Source: Acidobacteriota bacterium
Lineage (GTDB): Bacteria; Acidobacteriota; Vicinamibacteria; Vicinamibacterales; UBA2999
Assembly (NCBI GenBank): GCA_947482665.1
Contig: CANKJK010000012.1
Coordinates: 65,114 to 129,113 of the forward strand
Length of the DNA: 64,000 nt
Reading direction: 5' to 3'
Below the pieces are notes generated by a model. That model had not been told where the DNA came from, made no database searches, and saw only the letters and a list, made by a program, of their open reading frames with translations. Each line of letters starts with the position of its first letter. Positions within the stretch are counted from its first letter, which is position 1. A program made the translations under genes and the position numbers. Shown one piece after another: positions 3,114 through 13,951 of the stretch.

Positions 3114-3725
3114 TCACGCCAGCTGCCGTTCGGTGGTCAGGTGGCGACGAAGAACAACGGGAACCCACGTCCAGCCCGAGGCCAACGTGGCATCGATGAG
3201 TGGTTGCTTGATGCGGCGGACGTCGAAATCGAAATGGAGCACGTCCTTCGGCACGGCGGGCAGCGGCCCGGCCAGTGCCCACTGGCGATACTGCGACCGC
3301 TCAAAGAGCACAATGCCCTGGAAGCTGTTGGCCGACGCTTCACCTGGTCCCGTGCGCGTGCTGCTGCGTTGCTCCAGCACGCGGACCTCCCGGTGCGCGG
3401 GAGCGAGGGCGAGGGTGGCGCGATAGTGCTCGGTCGCACGAAACCTGGCGAAGAACTGCTGCCACGTGGCGTCGGCGATGCGCCACTCGGCGACAACCGT
3501 TCCGTCGGGCTGCGCTGCGTAGCTGAAGGGTTGGGCCGGGTCATTGAGGGCCAGCAGACGTGCACGCAGGAGCGTCGCCTCGGCGGTCTCAGCACCGTTC
3601 CGCGGCCGAATGGCGGCCCATCGGCTGACGGTGCCCCGCCACATTGCCAACGGCACCGCGAGGGCCAGGGCAACGCCCGCTAATCCGACCACGAGTCCCA
3701 ACACCGTACCGGCAGTCATAGTCAC
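3114..3725 (-). CDS. Small single-pass membrane protein of unknown function
   Basis: This 203-residue protein has one N-terminal hydrophobic segment (about residues 6-30, rich in Val, Leu and Ala), followed by a soluble domain with no recognised family. Its GTG start overlaps the TGA of the M48 protease gene in a GTGA, so the two are translationally coupled; an ATG two codons later is an alternative start. The coupling suggests a periplasmic or membrane partner of the protease, but this is inference from position only. Confidence 0.65.
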   Translation of the reverse strand: MTMTAGTVLGLVVGLAGVALALAVPLAMWRGTVSRWAAIRPRNGAETAEATLLRARLLALNDPAQPFSYAAQPDGTVVAEWRIADATWQQFFARFRATEHYRATLALAPAHREVRVLEQRSSTRTGPGEASANSFQGIVLFERSQYRQWALAGPLPAVPKDVLHFDFDVRRIKQPLIDATLASGWTWVPVVLRRHLTTERQLA

Positions 3726-5497
3726 CGCCCCGTATAACGGAAGGCGTCGCCCATCTGCTGGAACACCGGCATGTAGCGATCGAAGAGCTGGGTCGGCCCG
3801 AAGTAGCTGAGGATGACGAAGTGCTCGGGATACTCGAGCACGATCGAGATGTGACGCACGGCAACGAGACCCCGGTCGGCTTGCAGCGCGTAGGTGGCCC
3901 TGATAGCCAGGGCGCGGCGCATGCCGTCTCCGCGCGGCTCCGGTGGCTCCACGCTGGCTTGCGGCTTGCCCGAGAGGCCACGCACCATGATCTGGCCGAC
4001 GTCCGTCAGGCTCTGCCCGCGCAGGTTCACCTTCGGGGCGATTTCCATCTCCACGGTCGCCTGGTAGGCCTCGGTGCCCTGCTGCCCTTCAAAGATCGTG
4101 GTGCCACTCTCCGACTTCCGTGCGTTCCACGAGGCCGGCATCTCGCCGGCAAATGGCGCGTTGTCCACGGTGAAGGGAATCACAGCGCCTGCTCCGCTCA
4201 TCCCGCCCCCTGATGGGGCTGGTGCCGGCGCCGGTGCCGGCATGGGCACGGGCTCAGGCGGTGGAGGCAGCGCGCGAAGCTGCGCCTTCATCCGATCGAA
4301 GTCCGGCGACGATGTCGTCAGGTTCCGCTCGGGAAGGAGCGGCACGTAGTCGTTGACCGCATTCAGCCGATCGAGCGAGAAGGGGTGCGTGCGGGTCATC
4401 CGGTCCCACGCCTTGCGGGACGACGGCGCCATCGATTCGAACTTCTGGAAGAGAGAGGCCAGGGCCCGCGGGTCGTAGCCCGCGTCGTAGGCGATGTGGA
4501 TGCCGAGCCGATCCGCCTGGGCTTCCTGTTCGCGGCTGAAGGCGAGCTCACCGAGTGGATTGCCGATGGCCAGCAGCCCGGCGAGGAACTTCGATACGCC
4601 ACCCTGGGAAGTCTGGAGCCGCGTGAGCGTCTGCTGGTTCTGCACCGACTTGGTCACGGCCTTCCCGGAGTGGTGGGCGATGGTGTGGCCCATCTCGTGC
4701 GCGAGCACGCCGACCAGCTCCGCCTCGGTCGTGACCGTCTCGAGCAATCCCCGGTAGACGAAGATGAAGCCGGGTGTCGTCTGCGCGTTGACGACGGGGC
4801 TGTCGAGCACGGTCATCTCGTACTGCGGGGGAAATCCCTTGGCGACCGGCACGAGCCGATCGCACAGGCTCTGCACATAGTCCGAAACGCGACGGTCCGG
4901 CATGCGCGGGATGCCGCTGGCCGTGATCTGCTGCGAAAACTCCATCCCCCACTGCCGCTCCTGCTGGGCCGTGGCCGCATTGGCGGCGCCACCCGCGGGG
5001 TTTTCCGCGATCTCGTACCGCTCCGCGAACAATTGTTGCGAGGTCCGGAGCGCCCGCTGCGCCTCATCCCGCTGTGTGGGGGAGAGGTCCAGCGTCAGAT
5101 ACCGCATCCACATCTGGGTGGCGTCGCGGTAGTGCTGCATCTCGCTGTAGCTGGCGGCCATGCCGGCCAGCGCGCGCACATGCGTGGGGTCCTTCTTATA
5201 GATCTTGCTGTAGCGCTTGATGGCGTCATCCGGCTTGTGCAGCCGGATGTAGGTGTCTGCCGTCGCGAGCTGATACTCGAGATTCTTCTCGTCCTTCTTC
5301 TCGGCCTGCCGGAAGGCCTGCTCGGCCTCCTTGTAGGCGCCTTGCTGGAAGAAGATGAGGCCGCGCTCGTACTGCGCGGCGGCTTCCACCTGTTCTTTCG
5401 CGTCCTTGGTCTGACCGGCGGCCGTGCCCGCCACGGGCTGGAACAGCGCGACGGCGAGCGCCAGGGACAGGCACTGCGACGTGGCCCTGAATCTCAC
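3722..5497 (-). CDS. TPR-containing M48-family metalloprotease
   Basis: The 591-residue product begins at a GTG preceded by AGGAGGG at seven bases. It has a signal peptide (hydrophobic core ALAVALFQPVAG), then TPR-like repeats at about 35-150. An M48 zinc-peptidase domain carries HEMGH (HExxH; the Glu is catalytic and the two His bind zinc) and a downstream glutamate ligand in SREQEAQADRLG. A Pro/Ala-rich linker leads to a roughly 150-residue C-terminal domain that is not identified. Related BepA/YfgC proteases degrade or help assemble outer-membrane proteins in the periplasm, but those carry TPRs after the peptidase whereas here they come first. The Omp85 gene at 6379 and the TPR gene at 5774 are consistent with an envelope quality-control role. 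A strong palindrome abuts its ribosome-binding site. Confidence 0.88.
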   Translation of the reverse strand: MRFRATSQCLSLALAVALFQPVAGTAAGQTKDAKEQVEAAAQYERGLIFFQQGAYKEAEQAFRQAEKKDEKNLEYQLATADTYIRLHKPDDAIKRYSKIYKKDPTHVRALAGMAASYSEMQHYRDATQMWMRYLTLDLSPTQRDEAQRALRTSQQLFAERYEIAENPAGGAANAATAQQERQWGMEFSQQITASGIPRMPDRRVSDYVQSLCDRLVPVAKGFPPQYEMTVLDSPVVNAQTTPGFIFVYRGLLETVTTEAELVGVLAHEMGHTIAHHSGKAVTKSVQNQQTLTRLQTSQGGVSKFLAGLLAIGNPLGELAFSREQEAQADRLGIHIAYDAGYDPRALASLFQKFESMAPSSRKAWDRMTRTHPFSLDRLNAVNDYVPLLPERNLTTSSPDFDRMKAQLRALPPPPEPVPMPAPAPAPAPSGGGMSGAGAVIPFTVDNAPFAGEMPASWNARKSESGTTIFEGQQGTEAYQATVEMEIAPKVNLRGQSLTDVGQIMVRGLSGKPQASVEPPEPRGDGMRRALAIRATYALQADRGLVAVRHISIVLEYPEHFVILSYFGPTQLFDRYMPVFQQMGDAFRYTGR

Positions 5498-5649: not shown

Positions 5650-5773
5650 CAGGGACTACTTCACAGCCGTGTCAACACGACACGCCCTCGAAACGGGGTG
5701 TGACGAGATCGGGCGGTGGGCCGACGCCGAGCGGTGCCACGGTTCTTGCAGCACATAGTTGGGAGAGGTTGTT

Positions 5774-6382
5774 ATGCGCACACGAGTGATTGTCGGCATG
5801 GTGTGTCTGGTCATGGCCAACGAGGCCATGGCTCAGGTGTCGTCTCCGCAGCAGCTCTTCGAGAGCGGCCAGAACGAACAGGCCGCTCAGGGCCTTGCGG
5901 CTCGGCGCGAGGGCGGCACAGCTGAGCCATCCGAGGCCTTCCTCGAAGGCCTGGTGCTCACCAAGCTGGACCAGGCAGACGGCGCCAGACAGGCCTTCTC
6001 GCGCCTGGCGGCCTCGGACGATCCCGCCTGGGTGGCGGTCGGCGAGTCGGCGCTGGCCCTGGTCGCGTCGGACCTGTCGGCGGCGCGCGATGCCGCGACA
6101 CGAGCCGTCGCCGCGGCGCCAGGGCTCTTCGAGGCGCAATACCAGCTCGGTGTGGTCCGTGCCCGATTCGAGGACTGGGCCGGCTGCGCCGAGGCGTTCA
6201 GCCACGCGGCTGAGCTCAATCCCAGCTTTGCCTACGCGCACTACTACGCCGGCCTGTCGTACTCGCGCAGCGGCCGCGCCGACCGAACCTCCGAACACTT
6301 CGAGCGCTTCCTGAAGCTCGCGCCCCGGGCGCCCGAGCGCGCCGCGGTCGAGTCGCTCATGCGCACGCTGCGCGGTCGCTAG
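5774..6382 (+). CDS. Exported TPR protein
   Basis: The ATG at 5774 is chosen because GGGAGAGG lies just upstream and the encoded start (MRTRVIVGMVCLVMANEAMAQ) is a good signal peptide; a TTG 15 bases earlier is less likely. The mature protein of about 180 residues has TPR-type helical pairs, the clearest being around PSFAYAHYYAGLSYSRSGR. It probably acts as a periplasmic scaffold. It is divergent from the TPR-M48 protease. It converges on the TamB-Omp85 gene, with which it shares a CTAG that supplies both stop codons. Confidence 0.75.
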   Translation: MRTRVIVGMVCLVMANEAMAQVSSPQQLFESGQNEQAAQGLAARREGGTAEPSEAFLEGLVLTKLDQADGARQAFSRLAASDDPAWVAVGESALALVASDLSAARDAATRAVAAAPGLFEAQYQLGVVRARFEDWAGCAEAFSHAAELNPSFAYAHYYAGLSYSRSGRADRTSEHFERFLKLAPRAPERAAVESLMRTLRGR

Positions 6383-9300
6383 AACACGTGTCCGAAGGCG
6401 ACTGAGTACCGGACGGCGCGGTTCTGGCGCGGGACTGGCGCGGCGACATCGAGGCGGAAGAGGCCGACCGGCGTCCGTAACCGAAGCCCCGCGCCGGCCC
6501 CGACCTGCAGCGAGGCCAGCGAGAGATCGGCGACGCGCGGATAGACATTGCCCGCGTCGATGAAGGTGACGCCGCCGACCCTGCCCAGCACGGGGAATCT
6601 GAATTCCTGATTCAGCACGATGCTGGCCTGGCCGGGGATCGGGTCGCCGAAGATGTCGAAGCCGGCGAGGGCATTCTCGGCATAGCCACGCACCGTGTTG
6701 GCGCCTCCAGCCAGAAAGCGCTCGCTGAGGATCAGCGACTGGCCGAAGCCCTTTCCCACATTGAGGCGGACGGCTGAGGCTGAGACGACACGCGGAACGG
6801 GGCGCACGAACAGGAACTGCTGCAGGGAGTACTTCACGAAGCGGCCGGCACGGCCGAGGGCTTCGAGTCCGTACTCCACGGTGGAGGAGTGCAGGGTGCC
6901 GCGCACAGGCTCCAATGCGTCGTTTCGCGTATCGAAGACCACGGACGAAGCCAGCCGGGCCTGACGCCACCGTTCGTTGAGGGCGAAGGGGTCGGCCGGA
7001 TTGGCGTTCGGATCGAAGACATGGTTGCGTTCGAATTGATAGGAATACGACACCTGCACCCGGCCGCCGATGTGGAAGCGCTGCTCGGCTGTCAGCGTGG
7101 TCCGGTCGGTGATGAACGACAGGATCTGCGCTCCGTTCACGGAGTCCCGCGAACGGGAGACATAGAGGCGTGACGAGAGTGCCCGGCCAAACAGCCTCGG
7201 CCAGCTCACCGAGCCGCGGATGACCCGCTGGTCGTTGTTGTAGCGGACCGAGAGCAGACTGCTGCCAGGCCTTCCGAAGAGCCCCGTGCGGTCGAGGGTC
7301 CCGCTCAGTCCGCCGCCAAAGGTCCGGCCCTGGTCGGCCACCGGGGCGCTCTCGTCCGTGACGTTCACGCCGTAGCGGATGCGCCACGGCTGTACGGGGA
7401 GCAGCGTCACCTCTGCACGGACGGCCTCGATGCCCGGCGCCGTCTGCGGGGCGCCTGTCGGCACGGCCGTCACGTCCGCCCGGCTGAAGAGACCCGTCTG
7501 AAAGAGTCGCCGGCGTCCGGCATAGAAGGCGTCAAGGTTGGCGGGTGCTCCGGGCGTGAGCTGGAGCGCATCTGTGACCACGCCGTCGTGAACGCCCGTG
7601 TCGCCCATCACGGTGACGGCCTCGAGAATCTGCTGCACGCCCTCCTGCATCTGCACGGTGACATCCACCGTGGCCGTGGCGACGTGGACGGTGGTGCGCA
7701 CCTCGGCCTGTACGGCGTTGAAGCCCTCGGCCGCGTAGGCGCGCAGCAGGCGCTGGCGTGCGGGCGGGATCGTCTCGGCGGTGTAGCGCGCACCCTCGGT
7801 GAGTCCGAGGTCCTGACGGGCCCTGGCGTCGGTCCGGGCCTGGGTACCCACGATGGCGATCTGCCCGATGCTGAACGGCTCGCCCTCCCGGACAGTCACG
7901 GGGAGCGTGGCGGCACTGGTCGAGTACGTGACCGGGCCAGCGCTCACCGTGGCCGCCAGGAAGCCGCGCTGGCGGTACATCTGGGTGAGCGCGTCCGCGA
8001 GGCTCGCCGGCTTCATCCATGCACCCACGCCCAGCGTGTCGGCGGCGTCGTGCACTTCGGCAGTGGTGATGTGCGTGTTGCCTGTCACGGCGAGTGTGCG
8101 CGTGGCGCTCCTGGGGCCGCGCGCGACAGCCACCCGCAGACGCGCCAGGGCCGACGTAGCATCCGGGGCGACGCGCGTCACGCGAACCCGGGCCCGGAGA
8201 TACCCCTCGTCGGCCAGCGCGGTCCGCACCGCGGACGTGACGTCCGTCAGCAGCCCGATTTCGAGCAGGGCGTTGCTCCAGATGCGATCGATCTGCTGGA
8301 CGAGCTGTGCCGACAGGCGCTCGCCTGTGATCTCGATGGCGGTGCGTGCGCCAGCGGCGATGTTGTAGTCGAGTGCCACGTCCGGGCCCTGCTCGCGCGT
8401 CTGCCGCGCCGAGACCTTGACCTCGCGGTAGCCGAGGTCGAGATAGAGCTGCCGGAGTCGGCTGCGATCCTGTTGCCAGCGATAGAAGTCGAAGCGGTCA
8501 CCCGCGTGAAGGTGCAGCCGCCGCGTCAGCGCCGCGACGGCCAGCACCGGCTCTCCGGTGAAGCGGATGGCACTGATGCGCCCGGGCTGCTCCTGGCGTG
8601 TCGTGGGTGGAGCCGCAGGTCCGCCGAAGGAGACGTCATGGCGCACCTCGTACGACCGGCTGGTGTCGTCACGCGAGATGGCGCGGACTTCGACGGCGCG
8701 GGTGGGCGTCACCGCCACAATCCAGGTCAGCCGTCCGGTGTCACGCAGATTCTGGGACACAGTCACCTGGGCCGCGCCCGAGATGCGCCGTGCGATGGTG
8801 AGTCGCTGGGCGGGGTTGACCTCGCCAGCCAGCGAGGCATCTGACGCCAGCGCGTCCTGATTCGCCCCGCGTTCAAACCGGATGGAGTCCATGCCGATGG
8901 CCTTCGCGGCGAATCCGAGGGTCTCGCCTGACAGATATCCGAGGAACTGATCCCGCGCGACGGAGGCCCCGGCGCCGCCGATCTGATCGGCCAGCCTGCC
9001 CGTAGCCAGCAGCGAGACGATGTCCGCCTGCGGGCGGTCCGGTGTCGAGGTCAGCGTGGTCGTGAGCGTGTCTGGCGTGCCGGTCACCGTGAGCGTGATG
9101 TCGTACTGCGTCGGCGATCCGGCGTCGTTGGTGCCATCCACCCGCGTGCGGCCCGAGATGTCCAGCTGCGGCACGATCGCGTGCGGGTCGGAGAAGTCGA
9201 TCACGCCGCGGTCGATCACATAGGTGCGCCCGCCGAGAAACAGCACGCCGCCTTCGCGCACAGCCGCGCGACCGACGACGGCCGGTGACGCCGCGGTTCC

Positions 9301-12300
9301 GACCAGTCGGAGATCCAGTCCCAGGTCCAGGCGTCCGTAGTTGTTGTCCACGGCCAGGTCCTCGGCGCTGGTGACCGCCACGTCCAGATCGATGGCATCG
9401 AGCGTGGGACTCGCCGTGGCATCCACGGCCACCGCGTCCTGCTGCCGGCCGAAGGACGCGATGGCGGCGGCCAGGCTTAAGGGCTCTCGATACGCACCCT
9501 GCAGCACATCCAGGCGGCCCGAGAGCTTGGCCCGGCCCCCGAGCGCCAGCGTCAGGGCCGCGTTCACTTCCGAGCGCATCCCCGTCGGCACATCAAGGGC
9601 GACGTGGGTGGCATCGAGGGTGAAGGCACCATCGGTCACCCGCAGGTCCTTGTAGCCGAGGGCGCCGTGCATCGAGACGCGACCGCCATTGACCGTGCCT
9701 GCCAACTGCTCGATCTCGATGCGATCCGGCCGGAGCATGATGGCGCCGGCGACACCGGAGAGCCCGAGTCGTGGCTCGCTCAGAAGCAGTTCGCCGTCTC
9801 GCAGCCGAAGCACGCCGTCGGCCACGGGCGTTCCCACGGTGCCCTTGATGGTCAGGGACAAGTCGCCGGTTCCCTCGGTGGCGGCGTCCGGCAGGAAGAG
9901 GCTCAGCAGCCGGAGGCTGATGGCGCCATCCACCTGCAGGTCGACCGGATCCGCGGGGCGGAGGCCCGCTGTGCCCGTGAGTTGCAGGGGGCTGCCCGCC
10001 AGCGCCCAGTGCCAGTCGGCCGCGCGAAGGATGCCGGACTCCAGTTCGAGCCGCGTGGGCCGCGTCTGCTCGACCGGCACGCCGTCCGAGTTGAGACTGA
10101 ACTCGGACATCACCAGCGATCCGTTCAGGTGATCGAGCGCGGGACGGTCGGCCTGGAGATCGATGCGCAGTGCGGCACCCCCGGTCAGTTTCGACAGGCG
10201 GACCGGGTCCAGGAAAGGTTCGAGGACCGCGGGTGTGACCGTGTCGAGTGTGACGCGGGCCGAGGCCGCGCCATCCGTCACCCCAGCCGCTGGGATCACC
10301 CGCGCGGGCAGCCACGCGTCCAGGAAGCGGAGTGGCATGCGCGCCTGACCTGCGAGCACGGCTCCCTGCCAGTGCGCTTCCAGCACGGGCACGTCCACGA
10401 CACCGTGCTCCAGCGTGGCGGTGGCCGTCAGCGCGGTGGCCTCGGGATAGCCGGGCCAGGATCCGCGACCGGCCGTCACCTGCACCGTGCCGCCGAGGAC
10501 GGGAGCGTCGAGCGTCCCCGACGCGTGCGCGTCGAGCGTGAACGCGCCGTCGAGGCCAAACGCCGCGGGTGCCCCTGCGGCCACCATCCACGTGTGCAGG
10601 TCGGCCAGATTCCCCTTGACCTGCAGCGAGAGGGCGTCGCCAGCGGTCGCGCCGAGGTTGCCCGAGATCTCGGCCGTTGTGGTTCCCGTCCGCACGCGCA
10701 GCGACTCCACCGCGAGTCTGCCGGCGGCGTAGCGCGCGACGGCGGGCTGCTCAAGCGCCAGCGCGGTCTCGTCCGTGCGCAGGTCGAACGCCTCGAGCGT
10801 GAGGTCCCCGGCCATCTCCGAGGGCGCGCCGGCCTCGCCCGTCGCCGTGACCCGGCCGCGCACCACGCCAGACAGCCCGTGCAGCTGCGGTGGGAGTGAC
10901 CAACCCAGGCTCGCGATGACGGCGGCGACATCGGGTGTTCCCTCGGCGGTGACGGTCATCGCGTAGGGCGCGCGGGGAGCGATGGCGGCGCGCGCGGTGA
11001 GGGCGAGTGCCGGTGCCTCGGCGGTCACCGTGACGGCGTCATCCGCCACGCGGATGTCGGCGCGGATCGCGTCGACGTGCGCATCGCCCCAACGCAGGTC
11101 GGCGACGCGGATTTGCCCGCCGCCCTCCGGGTGTTCGGGTGTGCCGTGCAGGTCCAATGCGCCGTCGAGTACGGTCGACAGGGGCCAGTCGCCAGCAGCC
11201 GTCGAGATTGGGGAGAGGCGGAAGGATTCGGCCTGGAGCGCCAGTCCGTGCCGGTCTCCGGTCAGGCTGTACTCGCCCGTCGCCGTCACTCGTCCGCCGG
11301 TGGGCTGCCGGATCTCGGCGCGCGTCAGTGCCAGTGACGACTGTGATGCGAGGGCTGTCGCAGACAGGTTCCCCAGCGTCTGCCCAGCGATGCCCAGGTC
11401 GTCCCCCGCCAGCGTGATGGTGGCCGTCGGCGCCGTGAGCGTGCCTGCAAGATCCGCATGGCCCGTCAGTCGGCCCGTCGGTCGCCAGTCGGCTGCCGTG
11501 GGGCCGAGCGCGGCGACGTTGCCGACCACGATATCCACGCTGCCCTCGAGCGTGCGCCTGGGAAGGCCCATCGCGGCGCGGCCGCTGAGGGTGTTGCCGC
11601 CCATCGTTGCCGTGAGGTCGTCGATGGCGATGAGTCCCGTATTCGCCCGGAGGTTCAGCCGGGCCGAGAGGGCGTCCGCGCCGGGCACGTGTGCGTCAGT
11701 GAGGCCCAGGCTGCCGGTGACGACGGGCGACGCCAGCGTGCCCGCCAATTGCAGATCCGCTCGGAGACGGCCCGCGTCCGGCGTCGGCCAGGCGCGTGGC
11801 CAGAATCCCATGCGGCCCGCCGTGGACGCGAGCCGCGCGAGATCGTCCGCGGACGCGGCAATCGCGCCGCGGAGCGTGGAGTTCGTGAGGCTCGCCTCCG
11901 CGACTTCACCGTGGGCTGCGGCGTCGATGGTGGCGCCGTCGAGCGTGATCGCGGTGTGTGCGCGCCAAGTATTGTGTGACGCGGCGAGGGCGACGATGCC
12001 GGTCACCGCCGTGTGGGGCTGGAGGTCCGCGCGGACAGTGGCGTCAACGGCCAGCGTCGGGGCGCCCGCGAGGGTGGCGGTGAGGGTGGCGCGCCCGCTG
12101 AGCCTGGTATCGCGTAGCGCCTGCTGACCGGCGTCCGCGAGGGCTGACAACGGAATGTCGCGCCACGAGACCTGGGACGTCGCCTTCAGCGTGTCGAAGT
12201 CCAGTTGCCCTCGCCCCTCCACGAGGCCCGAACCCAGACGCACCGTGGCCGACTTGACCGTCAGCGTGCGCGTCGTCGCGTTGAGGTGCGCTGTGAGTGC

Positions 12301-13191
12301 GCGTGCGGCCACGGTGGTCCAGCGGAGCTCGCTCGACTCAAGCTCGAGGGAGATCTCCGGGGAGTCCATCGAACCGCTGATCTGGCCGGTCAGTCCGAGC
12401 GTGCCGGTGACGGGCGCTCCCGCCGTGAGGGCGGCGGACAGGGGGCCAAGGGCGAGAGTGCTCTCCATCCGCAGCGCGAGTGAGGCCGGAGCCCCGAAGA
12501 GGCCGGCGCGACCATCGAGGCGCAGACGGCCCAGGTCACTCGCGTACACGAGTCGGTCGAGGGAGAGCGTCACGCCGTCATAGGCAAGCGAGCCATCGAG
12601 CGTACCGTGGGTAGACAGTCCCGGCGTCTGCAGCGACAGCCCGCGCGCGACCAGGATGTGCCCCGTGGAGGTGCGGCCGTCGGGCATCAGGTCGAACGAG
12701 AGATCCTCGGCCGCGACATGCCGCTTGCCCGCCGCATCGTCATAGCGAACGGTCGCGTGAGTGACCTGTATGTGCCCCAGGTCCAGGCGCGCCAGCGGTG
12801 CGGCACCAGGTGTGCCCGTGGGCAGGTTCAGGGAGCCGTCCGCCTCCGTCGCCACGGTCAGCGTCGGGCGCGTGAGCGTGACTTCCTCGGTGCGGATGCC
12901 ACTGAACAGCGCGGCCCAGGGCAGGTCGACCTGAATGTCGTCGGCGATGAGAAAGGGCGTGCTGGCGTGGCTGGCTGAGACGCGGACACCCCGAAGGTGG
13001 AACCGCAACGTGAAGAGGTTGTAGGAGAGTGCGTCGAAGGACACGCGAAGGCCCCGCGTCTCAAGCCACGAGACGGCCTGCCTGCCAATCAGCGCCCGAG
13101 CTGGTGGGGAATGGGCTCCGGCCAGCCCCAGCGCGCAGACGGTCACCAGGATCAACCAGGCGAATGTTGCCGGCACGCGGGTCTTCGTCAT
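6379..13191 (-). CDS. TamB-type domain fused to POTRA repeats and an Omp85 beta-barrel
   Basis: One uninterrupted frame encodes about 2270 residues from the ATG at 13191. Further upstream in-frame codons would run into the divergent gene's leader and are rejected. An N-terminal hydrophobic segment (about 8-27) is followed by some 1230 residues of beta-rich, low-complexity AsmA/TamB-like sequence. A TamB C-terminal (DUF490) region occupies about 1260-1440, with the characteristic ADIVSLLATGR near 1387. Around 1536 this passes directly into several POTRA-like repeats. From about 1937 a 16-strand-type Omp85 barrel follows, with the conserved VRGY loop motif near 2167 and a terminal Phe. In E. 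coli, TamB (inner-membrane anchored) and TamA (outer-membrane Omp85) are separate proteins that bind through the TamB C-terminus and a TamA POTRA domain. Here the order in the polypeptide places those interacting parts side by side, so one chain could bridge the periplasm. Whether the N-terminal segment is an anchor or a cleaved signal is unresolved. Confidence 0.88.
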   Translation of the reverse strand: MTKTRVPATFAWLILVTVCALGLAGAHSPPARALIGRQAVSWLETRGLRVSFDALSYNLFTLRFHLRGVRVSASHASTPFLIADDIQVDLPWAALFSGIRTEEVTLTRPTLTVATEADGSLNLPTGTPGAAPLARLDLGHIQVTHATVRYDDAAGKRHVAAEDLSFDLMPDGRTSTGHILVARGLSLQTPGLSTHGTLDGSLAYDGVTLSLDRLVYASDLGRLRLDGRAGLFGAPASLALRMESTLALGPLSAALTAGAPVTGTLGLTGQISGSMDSPEISLELESSELRWTTVAARALTAHLNATTRTLTVKSATVRLGSGLVEGRGQLDFDTLKATSQVSWRDIPLSALADAGQQALRDTRLSGRATLTATLAGAPTLAVDATVRADLQPHTAVTGIVALAASHNTWRAHTAITLDGATIDAAAHGEVAEASLTNSTLRGAIAASADDLARLASTAGRMGFWPRAWPTPDAGRLRADLQLAGTLASPVVTGSLGLTDAHVPGADALSARLNLRANTGLIAIDDLTATMGGNTLSGRAAMGLPRRTLEGSVDIVVGNVAALGPTAADWRPTGRLTGHADLAGTLTAPTATITLAGDDLGIAGQTLGNLSATALASQSSLALTRAEIRQPTGGRVTATGEYSLTGDRHGLALQAESFRLSPISTAAGDWPLSTVLDGALDLHGTPEHPEGGGQIRVADLRWGDAHVDAIRADIRVADDAVTVTAEAPALALTARAAIAPRAPYAMTVTAEGTPDVAAVIASLGWSLPPQLHGLSGVVRGRVTATGEAGAPSEMAGDLTLEAFDLRTDETALALEQPAVARYAAGRLAVESLRVRTGTTTAEISGNLGATAGDALSLQVKGNLADLHTWMVAAGAPAAFGLDGAFTLDAHASGTLDAPVLGGTVQVTAGRGSWPGYPEATALTATATLEHGVVDVPVLEAHWQGAVLAGQARMPLRFLDAWLPARVIPAAGVTDGAASARVTLDTVTPAVLEPFLDPVRLSKLTGGAALRIDLQADRPALDHLNGSLVMSEFSLNSDGVPVEQTRPTRLELESGILRAADWHWALAGSPLQLTGTAGLRPADPVDLQVDGAISLRLLSLFLPDAATEGTGDLSLTIKGTVGTPVADGVLRLRDGELLLSEPRLGLSGVAGAIMLRPDRIEIEQLAGTVNGGRVSMHGALGYKDLRVTDGAFTLDATHVALDVPTGMRSEVNAALTLALGGRAKLSGRLDVLQGAYREPLSLAAAIASFGRQQDAVAVDATASPTLDAIDLDVAVTSAEDLAVDNNYGRLDLGLDLRLVGTAASPAVVGRAAVREGGVLFLGGRTYVIDRGVIDFSDPHAIVPQLDISGRTRVDGTNDAGSPTQYDITLTVTGTPDTLTTTLTSTPDRPQADIVSLLATGRLADQIGGAGASVARDQFLGYLSGETLGFAAKAIGMDSIRFERGANQDALASDASLAGEVNPAQRLTIARRISGAAQVTVSQNLRDTGRLTWIVAVTPTRAVEVRAISRDDTSRSYEVRHDVSFGGPAAPPTTRQEQPGRISAIRFTGEPVLAVAALTRRLHLHAGDRFDFYRWQQDRSRLRQLYLDLGYREVKVSARQTREQGPDVALDYNIAAGARTAIEITGERLSAQLVQQIDRIWSNALLEIGLLTDVTSAVRTALADEGYLRARVRVTRVAPDATSALARLRVAVARGPRSATRTLAVTGNTHITTAEVHDAADTLGVGAWMKPASLADALTQMYRQRGFLAATVSAGPVTYSTSAATLPVTVREGEPFSIGQIAIVGTQARTDARARQDLGLTEGARYTAETIPPARQRLLRAYAAEGFNAVQAEVRTTVHVATATVDVTVQMQEGVQQILEAVTVMGDTGVHDGVVTDALQLTPGAPANLDAFYAGRRRLFQTGLFSRADVTAVPTGAPQTAPGIEAVRAEVTLLPVQPWRIRYGVNVTDESAPVADQGRTFGGGLSGTLDRTGLFGRPGSSLLSVRYNNDQRVIRGSVSWPRLFGRALSSRLYVSRSRDSVNGAQILSFITDRTTLTAEQRFHIGGRVQVSYSYQFERNHVFDPNANPADPFALNERWRQARLASSVVFDTRNDALEPVRGTLHSSTVEYGLEALGRAGRFVKYSLQQFLFVRPVPRVVSASAVRLNVGKGFGQSLILSERFLAGGANTVRGYAENALAGFDIFGDPIPGQASIVLNQEFRFPVLGRVGGVTFIDAGNVYPRVADLSLASLQVGAGAGLRLRTPVGLFRLDVAAPVPRQNRAVRYSVAFGHVF

Positions 13192-13414: not shown

Positions 13415-13951
13415 ATGACGATCAGAACCACCGCAGTACTTGTCGCAGCAGCCCTGTTGACGGGCTTCACGCTCGGCACGCAGGTCGGAGCCGTGCAGGC
13501 ACCGGCCGACAAGCCGGTCACGGTGCAGCGCGTAGACCACATCAGCGTCTTCGTCCGCAGCGTCGAGAAGACGGCGGAGTTGCACAAACTCCTGCTGGGC
13601 ACCGATGTGCCGACGTTCAGCGAGCCGCCTCGCCAGCCGATCTTTCCGCCCGACTTCAAGGGCGACCGCAACTCGCATCCCCGCTACGGCCACGTCCAGC
13701 TGGCCAACGCGCGCATCGAGCTGATGGAGCCGGTGGGTGGCGAGAGCCGCTGGCGCGAGTTCCTGGCCACGCACGGGCAGGGTGTCGAGCATCTGGGCTT
13801 CGTCGTGGCCGATGTCAAGGAAGCGGCCGCCCGGTTCCAGAAGGCCGGCGGCAAGCTCATCATGGGCGGCTGCGATGGATGCACCGCGCACATCGATATG
13901 CGCGAGCAGCTCGGCTATATCGTTGAGCTGATGCCCGCTCCGAAACAGTAA
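13415..13951 (+). CDS. Exported single-domain VOC/glyoxalase-fold protein
   Basis: The ATG at 13415 is preferred over one at 13394 because GAGGAG lies seven bases upstream. The 178-residue product has a signal peptide (hydrophobic stretch TTAVLVAAALLTGFTLG). One vicinal-oxygen-chelate domain follows, opening with QRVDHISVFVRSVEKTAE and containing GHVQLANARIELMEP and GVEHLGFVVADVKEAA; the His and Glu residues in these segments are the expected metal ligands. VOC enzymes include glyoxalases, extradiol dioxygenases and epimerases. The reaction cannot be assigned, and export is unusual for the family. A related tandem form is at 20649. Confidence 0.8.
   Translation: MTIRTTAVLVAAALLTGFTLGTQVGAVQAPADKPVTVQRVDHISVFVRSVEKTAELHKLLLGTDVPTFSEPPRQPIFPPDFKGDRNSHPRYGHVQLANARIELMEPVGGESRWREFLATHGQGVEHLGFVVADVKEAAARFQKAGGKLIMGGCDGCTAHIDMREQLGYIVELMPAPKQ

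Follow-up and report, generated by a model that had tools for sequence, protein, structure and literature searches.

Can one gene encode both the TamB-type bridge that starts in the inner membrane and the Omp85 barrel that ends in the outer membrane, and if so, what would such a protein do? This is the question raised by a locus in a window of 64,000 nucleotides, the whole stretch of DNA analysed here, from an Acidobacteriota bacterium of the order Vicinamibacterales (assembly GCA_947482665.1, contig CANKJK010000012.1, positions 65,114 to 129,113 of the forward strand). A preliminary description of this DNA had claimed a single frame of about 2270 codons that joins a TamB (DUF490) region to POTRA repeats and an Omp85 barrel, and the claim stands: the frame occupies positions 6379 to 13191 of the minus strand, contains 2270 codons and no internal stop, begins with the ATG at 13191 and ends with the stop codon at 6379-6381 (Table 1). 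The Pfam models of all three families match this one protein with scores far over their cut-offs, namely TamB (PF04357, formerly DUF490; residues 1167 to 1485; E = 2.3e-34; 119.7 bits against a cut-off of 22.4), POTRA (PF07244; from residue 1538; E = 4.3e-27; 95.1 bits against 21.3) and Omp85 (PF01103; residues 1971 to 2258; E = 2.2e-36; 126.4 bits against 24), and the two landmarks named in the preliminary description, ADIVSLLATGR and VRGY, are found at residues 1389-1399 and 2167-2170. The frame upstream of the ATG is still open as far as a TTG at 13671; the ATG is a reasonable but unproven start, because the open frame of the homologue L012/L047 starts just some two residues ahead of the position aligned with it. 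We propose that the gene probably makes a one-chain intermembrane bridge that works like TamAB, the two-protein translocation and assembly module (TAM). More tentatively, and as a possibility short of an even chance, we propose that one uncut chain, integral to both membranes, constitutes the whole lipid conduit and its gate, with the last strand of TamB paired in cis with its own barrel, and that this chain is the sole TamB in some Acidobacteriota.

Table 1. Positions in the window of the fusion gene, of its parts and of the convergent neighbour.
Feature	Positions	Strand	Basis
Fusion gene TamB-Omp85, 2270 aa (P0001)	6379..13191	-	Open frame and Pfam
Predicted N-terminal inner-membrane anchor helix, residues 5-25	13117..13179	-	AlphaFold2 model of residues 1-1150, hydropathy
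Beta bridge of the AsmA/TamB beta-taco type, continuous over residues 46-1383, its N-terminal part matching DUF748	9043..13056	-	Pfam, AlphaFold2
Pfam TamB domain, residues 1167-1485	8737..9693	-	Pfam
TamB terminal strands, residues 1436-1522, last residue F1522	8626..8886	-	AlphaFold2, alignment
Linker, residues 1523-1537, Gly/Ala/Pro/Arg-rich across homologues	8581..8625	-	Alignment
Five POTRA domains, residues 1538-1612, 1616-1690, 1697-1768, 1774-1849 and 1853-1932	7396..8580	-	Secondary structure of the model, PDB matches
Omp85 16-strand barrel, residues 1936-2266, with VRGY at 2167-2170	6394..7386	-	Pfam, AlphaFold2, structural matches
Small TPR (tetratricopeptide repeat) protein whose start resembles a signal peptide, encoded convergently with the fusion gene; candidate partner	5759..6382	+	Pfam, neighbour comparison

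The TamB half also matches DUF748 in Pfam (residues 10 to 168; E = 1.7e-15), and its score for the TamB equivalog NF047952 (46.7 bits) is under the NCBIfam cut-off of 825. The AlphaFold2 model of residues 1 to 1150 (19 sequences; predicted local distance difference test, pLDDT, 85.5; predicted template-modelling score, pTM, 0.51) places helices at residues 5 to 25 and 29 to 45, followed by mostly beta structure. The first of these helices corresponds to the hydrophobic N-terminal segment that had been noticed in the sequence (best 19-residue hydropathy 2.13; 1.87 to 3.19 in homologues with a complete N-terminus), and inspection of the N-terminus by eye revealed no consistent signal-peptidase site. 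Hydrophobicity in the predicted strands of this model alternates at 2.58, compared with 1.56 ± 0.15 after shuffling (none of 1000 shuffles reached as high a value), and 64% of one strand face is hydrophobic compared with 27% of the other, as would be expected of a lipid groove but also of other amphipathic sheets. The Foldseek matches of this model at E ≤ 0.001 were six, comprising four ApoB100 entries, LPD-3, which we take to be a bridge-like lipid transfer protein, and LptDE. With a C-terminal domain over the Pfam cut-off, a predicted N-terminal anchor and predicted continuous beta structure, this half has, as modelled, the features of a TamB protein.

The model of residues 1075 to 2270 (21 sequences; pLDDT 76.2; pTM 0.61) predicts that the continuous beta structure leads on to the POTRA repeats, in line with the preliminary description, and that after the linker come five POTRA domains and then 16 barrel strands. 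The analogy drawn in that description with TamB and TamA was right in that this is a true fusion of TamB with an Omp85 protein, but the Omp85 half has five POTRAs and is a better match to the BamA model than to the TamA model. BamA ranked first in the Foldseek search with the C-terminal model, in alignments of about 800 columns covering POTRAs and barrel, and the matches in the PDB align this region to five-POTRA BamA. A second structural alignment returned TamA, BamA and mitochondrial SAM at Z between 17.8 and 20.0 for the POTRA-barrel part; no TamB chain was among the matches that it listed, which leaves it uninformative on the TamB part. By Pfam the protein belongs to the Omp85 superfamily, and the hallmark of BamA, five POTRAs and a 16-strand barrel, is present in the model. 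The barrel half is BamA-like rather than TamA-like, and its identification as TamA was rejected because the model has five POTRAs against the three of TamA. Among the NCBIfam models the best match was the BamA equivalog TIGR03303 (206.5 bits, under its cut-off of 297.15), and the TamA equivalog NF047950 scored 78.7 bits, under its cut-off of 625, the fusion reaching the cut-off of neither.

The five POTRAs and the first rank of BamA in NCBIfam would suit a dedicated insertase of outer-membrane proteins similar to the beta-barrel assembly machinery (BAM), in which the TamB part would serve only as a tether or chaperone and there would be no lipid conduit; in Spirochaetes, TamB has in fact been proposed as part of a BAM/TAM hybrid (PMC8407342). 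We consider this unlikely. The beta bridge keeps an amphipathic alternation such as a lipid groove, among other structures, should have, and the fusion genomes checked contain another candidate for the task. The window's genome holds a further BamA-like Omp85 besides a separate TamB-Omp85 pair, and a separate strong Omp85, presumably BamA, was present in all 16 genomes checked of the 25 in which the fusion is the only TamB found. Because such BamA-like proteins are present in the genomes checked, the idea that the fusion is the cell's BamA was rejected for those genomes. The 25 genomes come from a count of TamB matches in 52 of the 72 fusion genomes of the phylum (see below): 25 have one match, the fused gene itself (the single-contig genome G113 is one of them), and 27 have two or three, a second TamB being found in all ten fusion genomes examined from the window's order. 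Among 22 genomes that lack a strong fusion, a TamB match turned up in 20 and was missing from two (E ≤ 1e-8). The AsmA model PF05170 had no match in the window's own genome, and the YhdP model PF13116 had none in G000 and weak matches under the cut-off in 14 of 18 genomes.

Where the two halves meet, the C-terminal model shows strands as far as about residue 1383 and then three short helices and six strands ending at residue 1522, partly with low confidence. In E. coli TamB, the published C-terminal domain comprises two helices and six strands, and its last strand mates with the first strand of TamA (PMC12800296), and the end of the TamB half, as modelled, looks like this description. When fused proteins were aligned with 11 chosen separate TamBs, the terminal phenylalanine of six of them fell on F1522, directly before the linker; these are E. 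coli TamB (L078), the TamBs of four TamB-then-Omp85 pairs from the window's order, including the pair of its own genome (L037), and L141. In a seventh (L134) the phenylalanine is the penultimate residue. Among the fused proteins, this column holds phenylalanine in 24 of 29 rows of group I and six of 12 rows of group II, the two fused groups of the trees described below. Since the terminal phenylalanines align just before the linker, it appears that a whole TamB, its barrel-mimicking end included, was placed N-terminal to an entire POTRA-barrel protein. By model and alignment, the strand through which E. coli TamB pairs with its barrel partner is retained here together with its phenylalanine, but internally, just ahead of the linker. 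Its pairing with the barrel of a neighbouring molecule is an alternative to pairing in cis, which would have to reach past five POTRAs by means of a 15-residue linker.

The linker also invites the reading that the protein is a polyprotein, made as one chain for export together and then cut into an ordinary TamB and Omp85 pair. It is rich in Ala, Gly, Pro and Arg, poorly conserved, and 14 to 32 residues long (median 18 in 41 fused rows, 15 in the window protein), and separate TamB-then-Omp85 pairs with overlapping frames occur in the same genomes. We judge a polyprotein to be quite improbable, given that no conserved cleavage motif was seen by eye in the 41 linkers and that the fused state is retained across distant families. 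A cut Omp85 half would, moreover, have no export signal of its own and therefore must first travel with TamB.

Conservation of the joined frame was examined by searching the whole fusion protein against 59 genomes (the window's and 58 relatives), some matches being fragments at contig ends. At least 41 of the 59 have a single stop-free frame crossing the linker between TamB and POTRA, with at least 31 of 36 in the family and at least ten of 23 elsewhere in the order; relatives do not, as the preliminary description had allowed, always carry two genes. Full-length homologues are collinear with 26-44% identity (for example, 40% over residues 4 to 2270). A profile of the junction region made from 33 fused sequences was then used for a census of 297 Acidobacteriota genomes, the window's own included, and found strong fusions in 72 of them (E ≤ 1e-75); this threshold favours fused genes, and the figure is therefore a census of strong fusions and not an unbiased test. 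All 76 matches listed in the census cross the junction without a stop, 64 of them in frames of at least 2000 aa, and G113 has a fused frame of 2086 aa. The survey of Vicinamibacteria that had been suggested thus found the joined order conserved in Vicinamibacterales, but the fusion is spread across the phylum and not peculiar to that lineage. Nei-Gojobori estimates of the ratio of nonsynonymous to synonymous change (dN/dS) for a close pair of fused genes were 0.29 overall, 0.30 in the TamB part and 0.26 in the Omp85 part, so that both halves are under purifying selection in this pair; the value of 3.5 for the linker comes from just 14 codons, not enough for a judgement, and the comparison of the window with L058 gave 0.26 over 939 codons. 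The possibility that the frame is a product of misassembly or frameshift, or that the gene is decaying, for which a few broken copies could be cited (the second copy of G021 on C387, in two frames, and L091 of G118), was rejected and has a negligible probability in view of these dN/dS values, the conserved junction and the open frame at 8.5-9.1 kb in independent assemblies, the single-contig genome included.

A scan of contigs with only two peptide patterns found 20 loci, all judged to be from Acidobacteriota. Two loci deposited as Acidimicrobiia and Cyanobacteria (L070 and L077) carry fusions of the Acidobacteriota type, and these labels look wrong. A tblastn search of plasmids returned 24 records, none with 80% cover, and the 15 listed match the POTRA-barrel part only.

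Several observations weigh against a one-chain bridge that works like TamAB. The TM-scores of the N-terminal model in Foldseek were all ≤0.20. The C-terminal model is moderate, with mean pLDDT of 32 to 46 in blocks over residues 1405 to 1464 and 47 in the linker, and its target-length TM-scores among the Foldseek matches listed were at most 0.48 for BamA and 0.66 for TamA, so the relative positions of the domains are unreliable. At the junction, four of the 11 separate TamBs have no phenylalanine at or adjacent to their end (three have other ends, and the fourth is misaligned), the terminal phenylalanine is missing from half of the group II fusions, and the chain might be cut at the linker because this is variable and possibly protease-sensitive. 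Lastly, 18 of the 59 genomes searched have no strong fusion among the matches listed, and the work of the fusion is therefore not universal.

Three arrangements were seen among the loci examined: fused, TamB followed by Omp85 on one strand and often overlapping, and Omp85 followed by TamB. The window's own genome holds a separate pair of the second kind (L037). In two loci TamB and Omp85 share a frame that a single stop codon interrupts (at 5629-5631 in L110 and 5621-5623 in L111), a layout close to fusion or fission. The third arrangement has the order of E. coli (for example, L113, L122, L128 and L154). In L113, L122, L128, L145, L148 and L154, Omp85 frames of 633 to 835 aa precede TamB, in what is apparently a third, TamA-like system. 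Genomes G063 and G078, which already have one TamB-Omp85 fusion, carry a second, divergent one (L135 and L136).

Trees were built from Omp85 (91 rows), TamB (94 rows) and both joined (85 rows), omitting fragments and duplicate loci, and L131, L132 and L137 from the joined set; they carry warnings of long branches (TamB and joined) and uneven letter composition (TamB, Omp85 and joined). The Omp85 and joined trees contain the fused group I (37 rows, including the window), the fused group II (12 rows) and the TamB-Omp85 pairs. The TamB tree recovers group II, the pairs and a core of 30 group I rows, with nine group I rows falling outside it. The fused and split labels require two changes in each of the three trees, and when well-supported branches alone are counted, the TamB tree still needs two but the Omp85 and joined trees just one. 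In the joined tree, group II and the split pairs form one side of a branch with support of 75 only, and the tree with all fused rows together was 7.69 log units better than that of the free search (approximately unbiased test, p-AU 0.66). On these sequence data one fusion event is not rejected, nor are two.

No gene of the same strand abuts the fusion: the upstream glyoxalase-like gene points the opposite way and the TPR gene converges on the 3' end. The TPR gene is convergent there in 15 of 20 related loci and lies on the 5' side in one more; two of the four without it (L063 and L072) end too early to judge. Of the more distant fused loci, 34 were compared, some of them with short flanks, and three (L099, L100 and L105) have it adjacent or within 2.7 kb. 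It is absent beside the second fusion copies L041 and L042, and among 45 split loci only L156 has it nearby, as a weak match within a frame of 631 aa. Its product may be a periplasmic partner of the fusion, which we regard as a lead and not a result. A protein with TPR and M48 metallopeptidase domains, presumably BepA-like by resemblance, is encoded at 3722-5497 (minus strand) and does not feature in the list of conserved neighbours of the 20 related loci.

Compared with the TAM of Proteobacteria, the fusion has the same TamB C-terminal domain and Omp85 barrel and, as predicted, the same inner-membrane anchor and beta-taco, but TAM is encoded by two genes with tamA before tamB, whereas here one open frame has TamB first, and TamA has three POTRAs (PMC4104836) where the fusion has five. 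The TamB-BamA pairs of Spirochaetes and Acidobacteria (PMC4494059; T. pallidum TP0325-TP0326, PMC8407342) resemble it in combining TamB with a BamA-type Omp85 and, in Spirochaetes, in having TamB upstream; they differ in being separate proteins, and in Acidobacteria the order is given as BamA-TamB (PMC4494059). For Acidobacteria, Heinz et al. 2015 reported TamB, duplicated BamA and an operon in the order BamA-TamB (PMC4494059), and in the accessible part of that article the words "fusion" and "fused" are absent. Functionally, the nearest parallel from the accessible text is found in Veillonella parvula, whose elongated MlaD (PMC10665443) combines in one chain a helix in the inner membrane with a barrel predicted for the outer membrane and is proposed as a transenvelope lipid bridge; it belongs, however, to the MCE/Mla family, has a predicted 10-strand barrel and is neither a TamB nor an Omp85 protein. 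Other Omp85 fusions, the patatin-like PlpD and the WD40-like proteins, also carry the extra domain N-terminal to the barrel (Heinz and Lithgow 2014, PMC4104836); in the accessible part of that work, which names ten Omp85 architectures, DUF490 is absent, TamB occurs once and TamB-Omp85 was not found. A 2024 review of TAM contains no word starting with "fus". As the preliminary description supposed, no published description of a TamB-Omp85 fusion was found in the literature searched, most subscription papers and preprints being outside its reach.

The localisation of the protein, its uncut chain, its lipid or protein cargo and the mating of its strands are given in what follows as we infer them. 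The N-terminal helix would anchor the chain in the inner membrane, the long beta-taco with its hydrophobic groove would span the periplasm, the short linker would hold the complete C-terminal domain of TamB beside POTRA1, and the five POTRAs would lead into the Omp85 barrel in the outer membrane. By analogy with TamAB, the groove would carry phospholipids across from the inner membrane, and in the outer membrane the Omp85 gate would open toward the bilayer and deliver these lipids, insert certain outer-membrane proteins, or both. Covalent joining would set a 1:1 stoichiometry and couple specific TamB and Omp85 paralogues, a fixed choice of partner that would matter in those genomes that have further TamB and Omp85 copies.

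There is debate on whether TamB forms a fixed complex with its Omp85 partner, and on whether their cargo is lipids, proteins or both. Because the two are here naturally fused, as an extra copy in some genomes and as the only TamB found in others, the fusion argues strongly, on genetic grounds, that the partnership is obligate; it extends TAM-like pairing to five-POTRA Omp85 proteins and offers a single-gene system for testing the conduit question. It also poses a puzzle of biogenesis, namely how a barrel is inserted into the outer membrane while the other end of the chain is anchored in the inner membrane. Many Acidobacteriota have a single gene for parts that other bacteria make separately, and its giant product could reach across the entire envelope.

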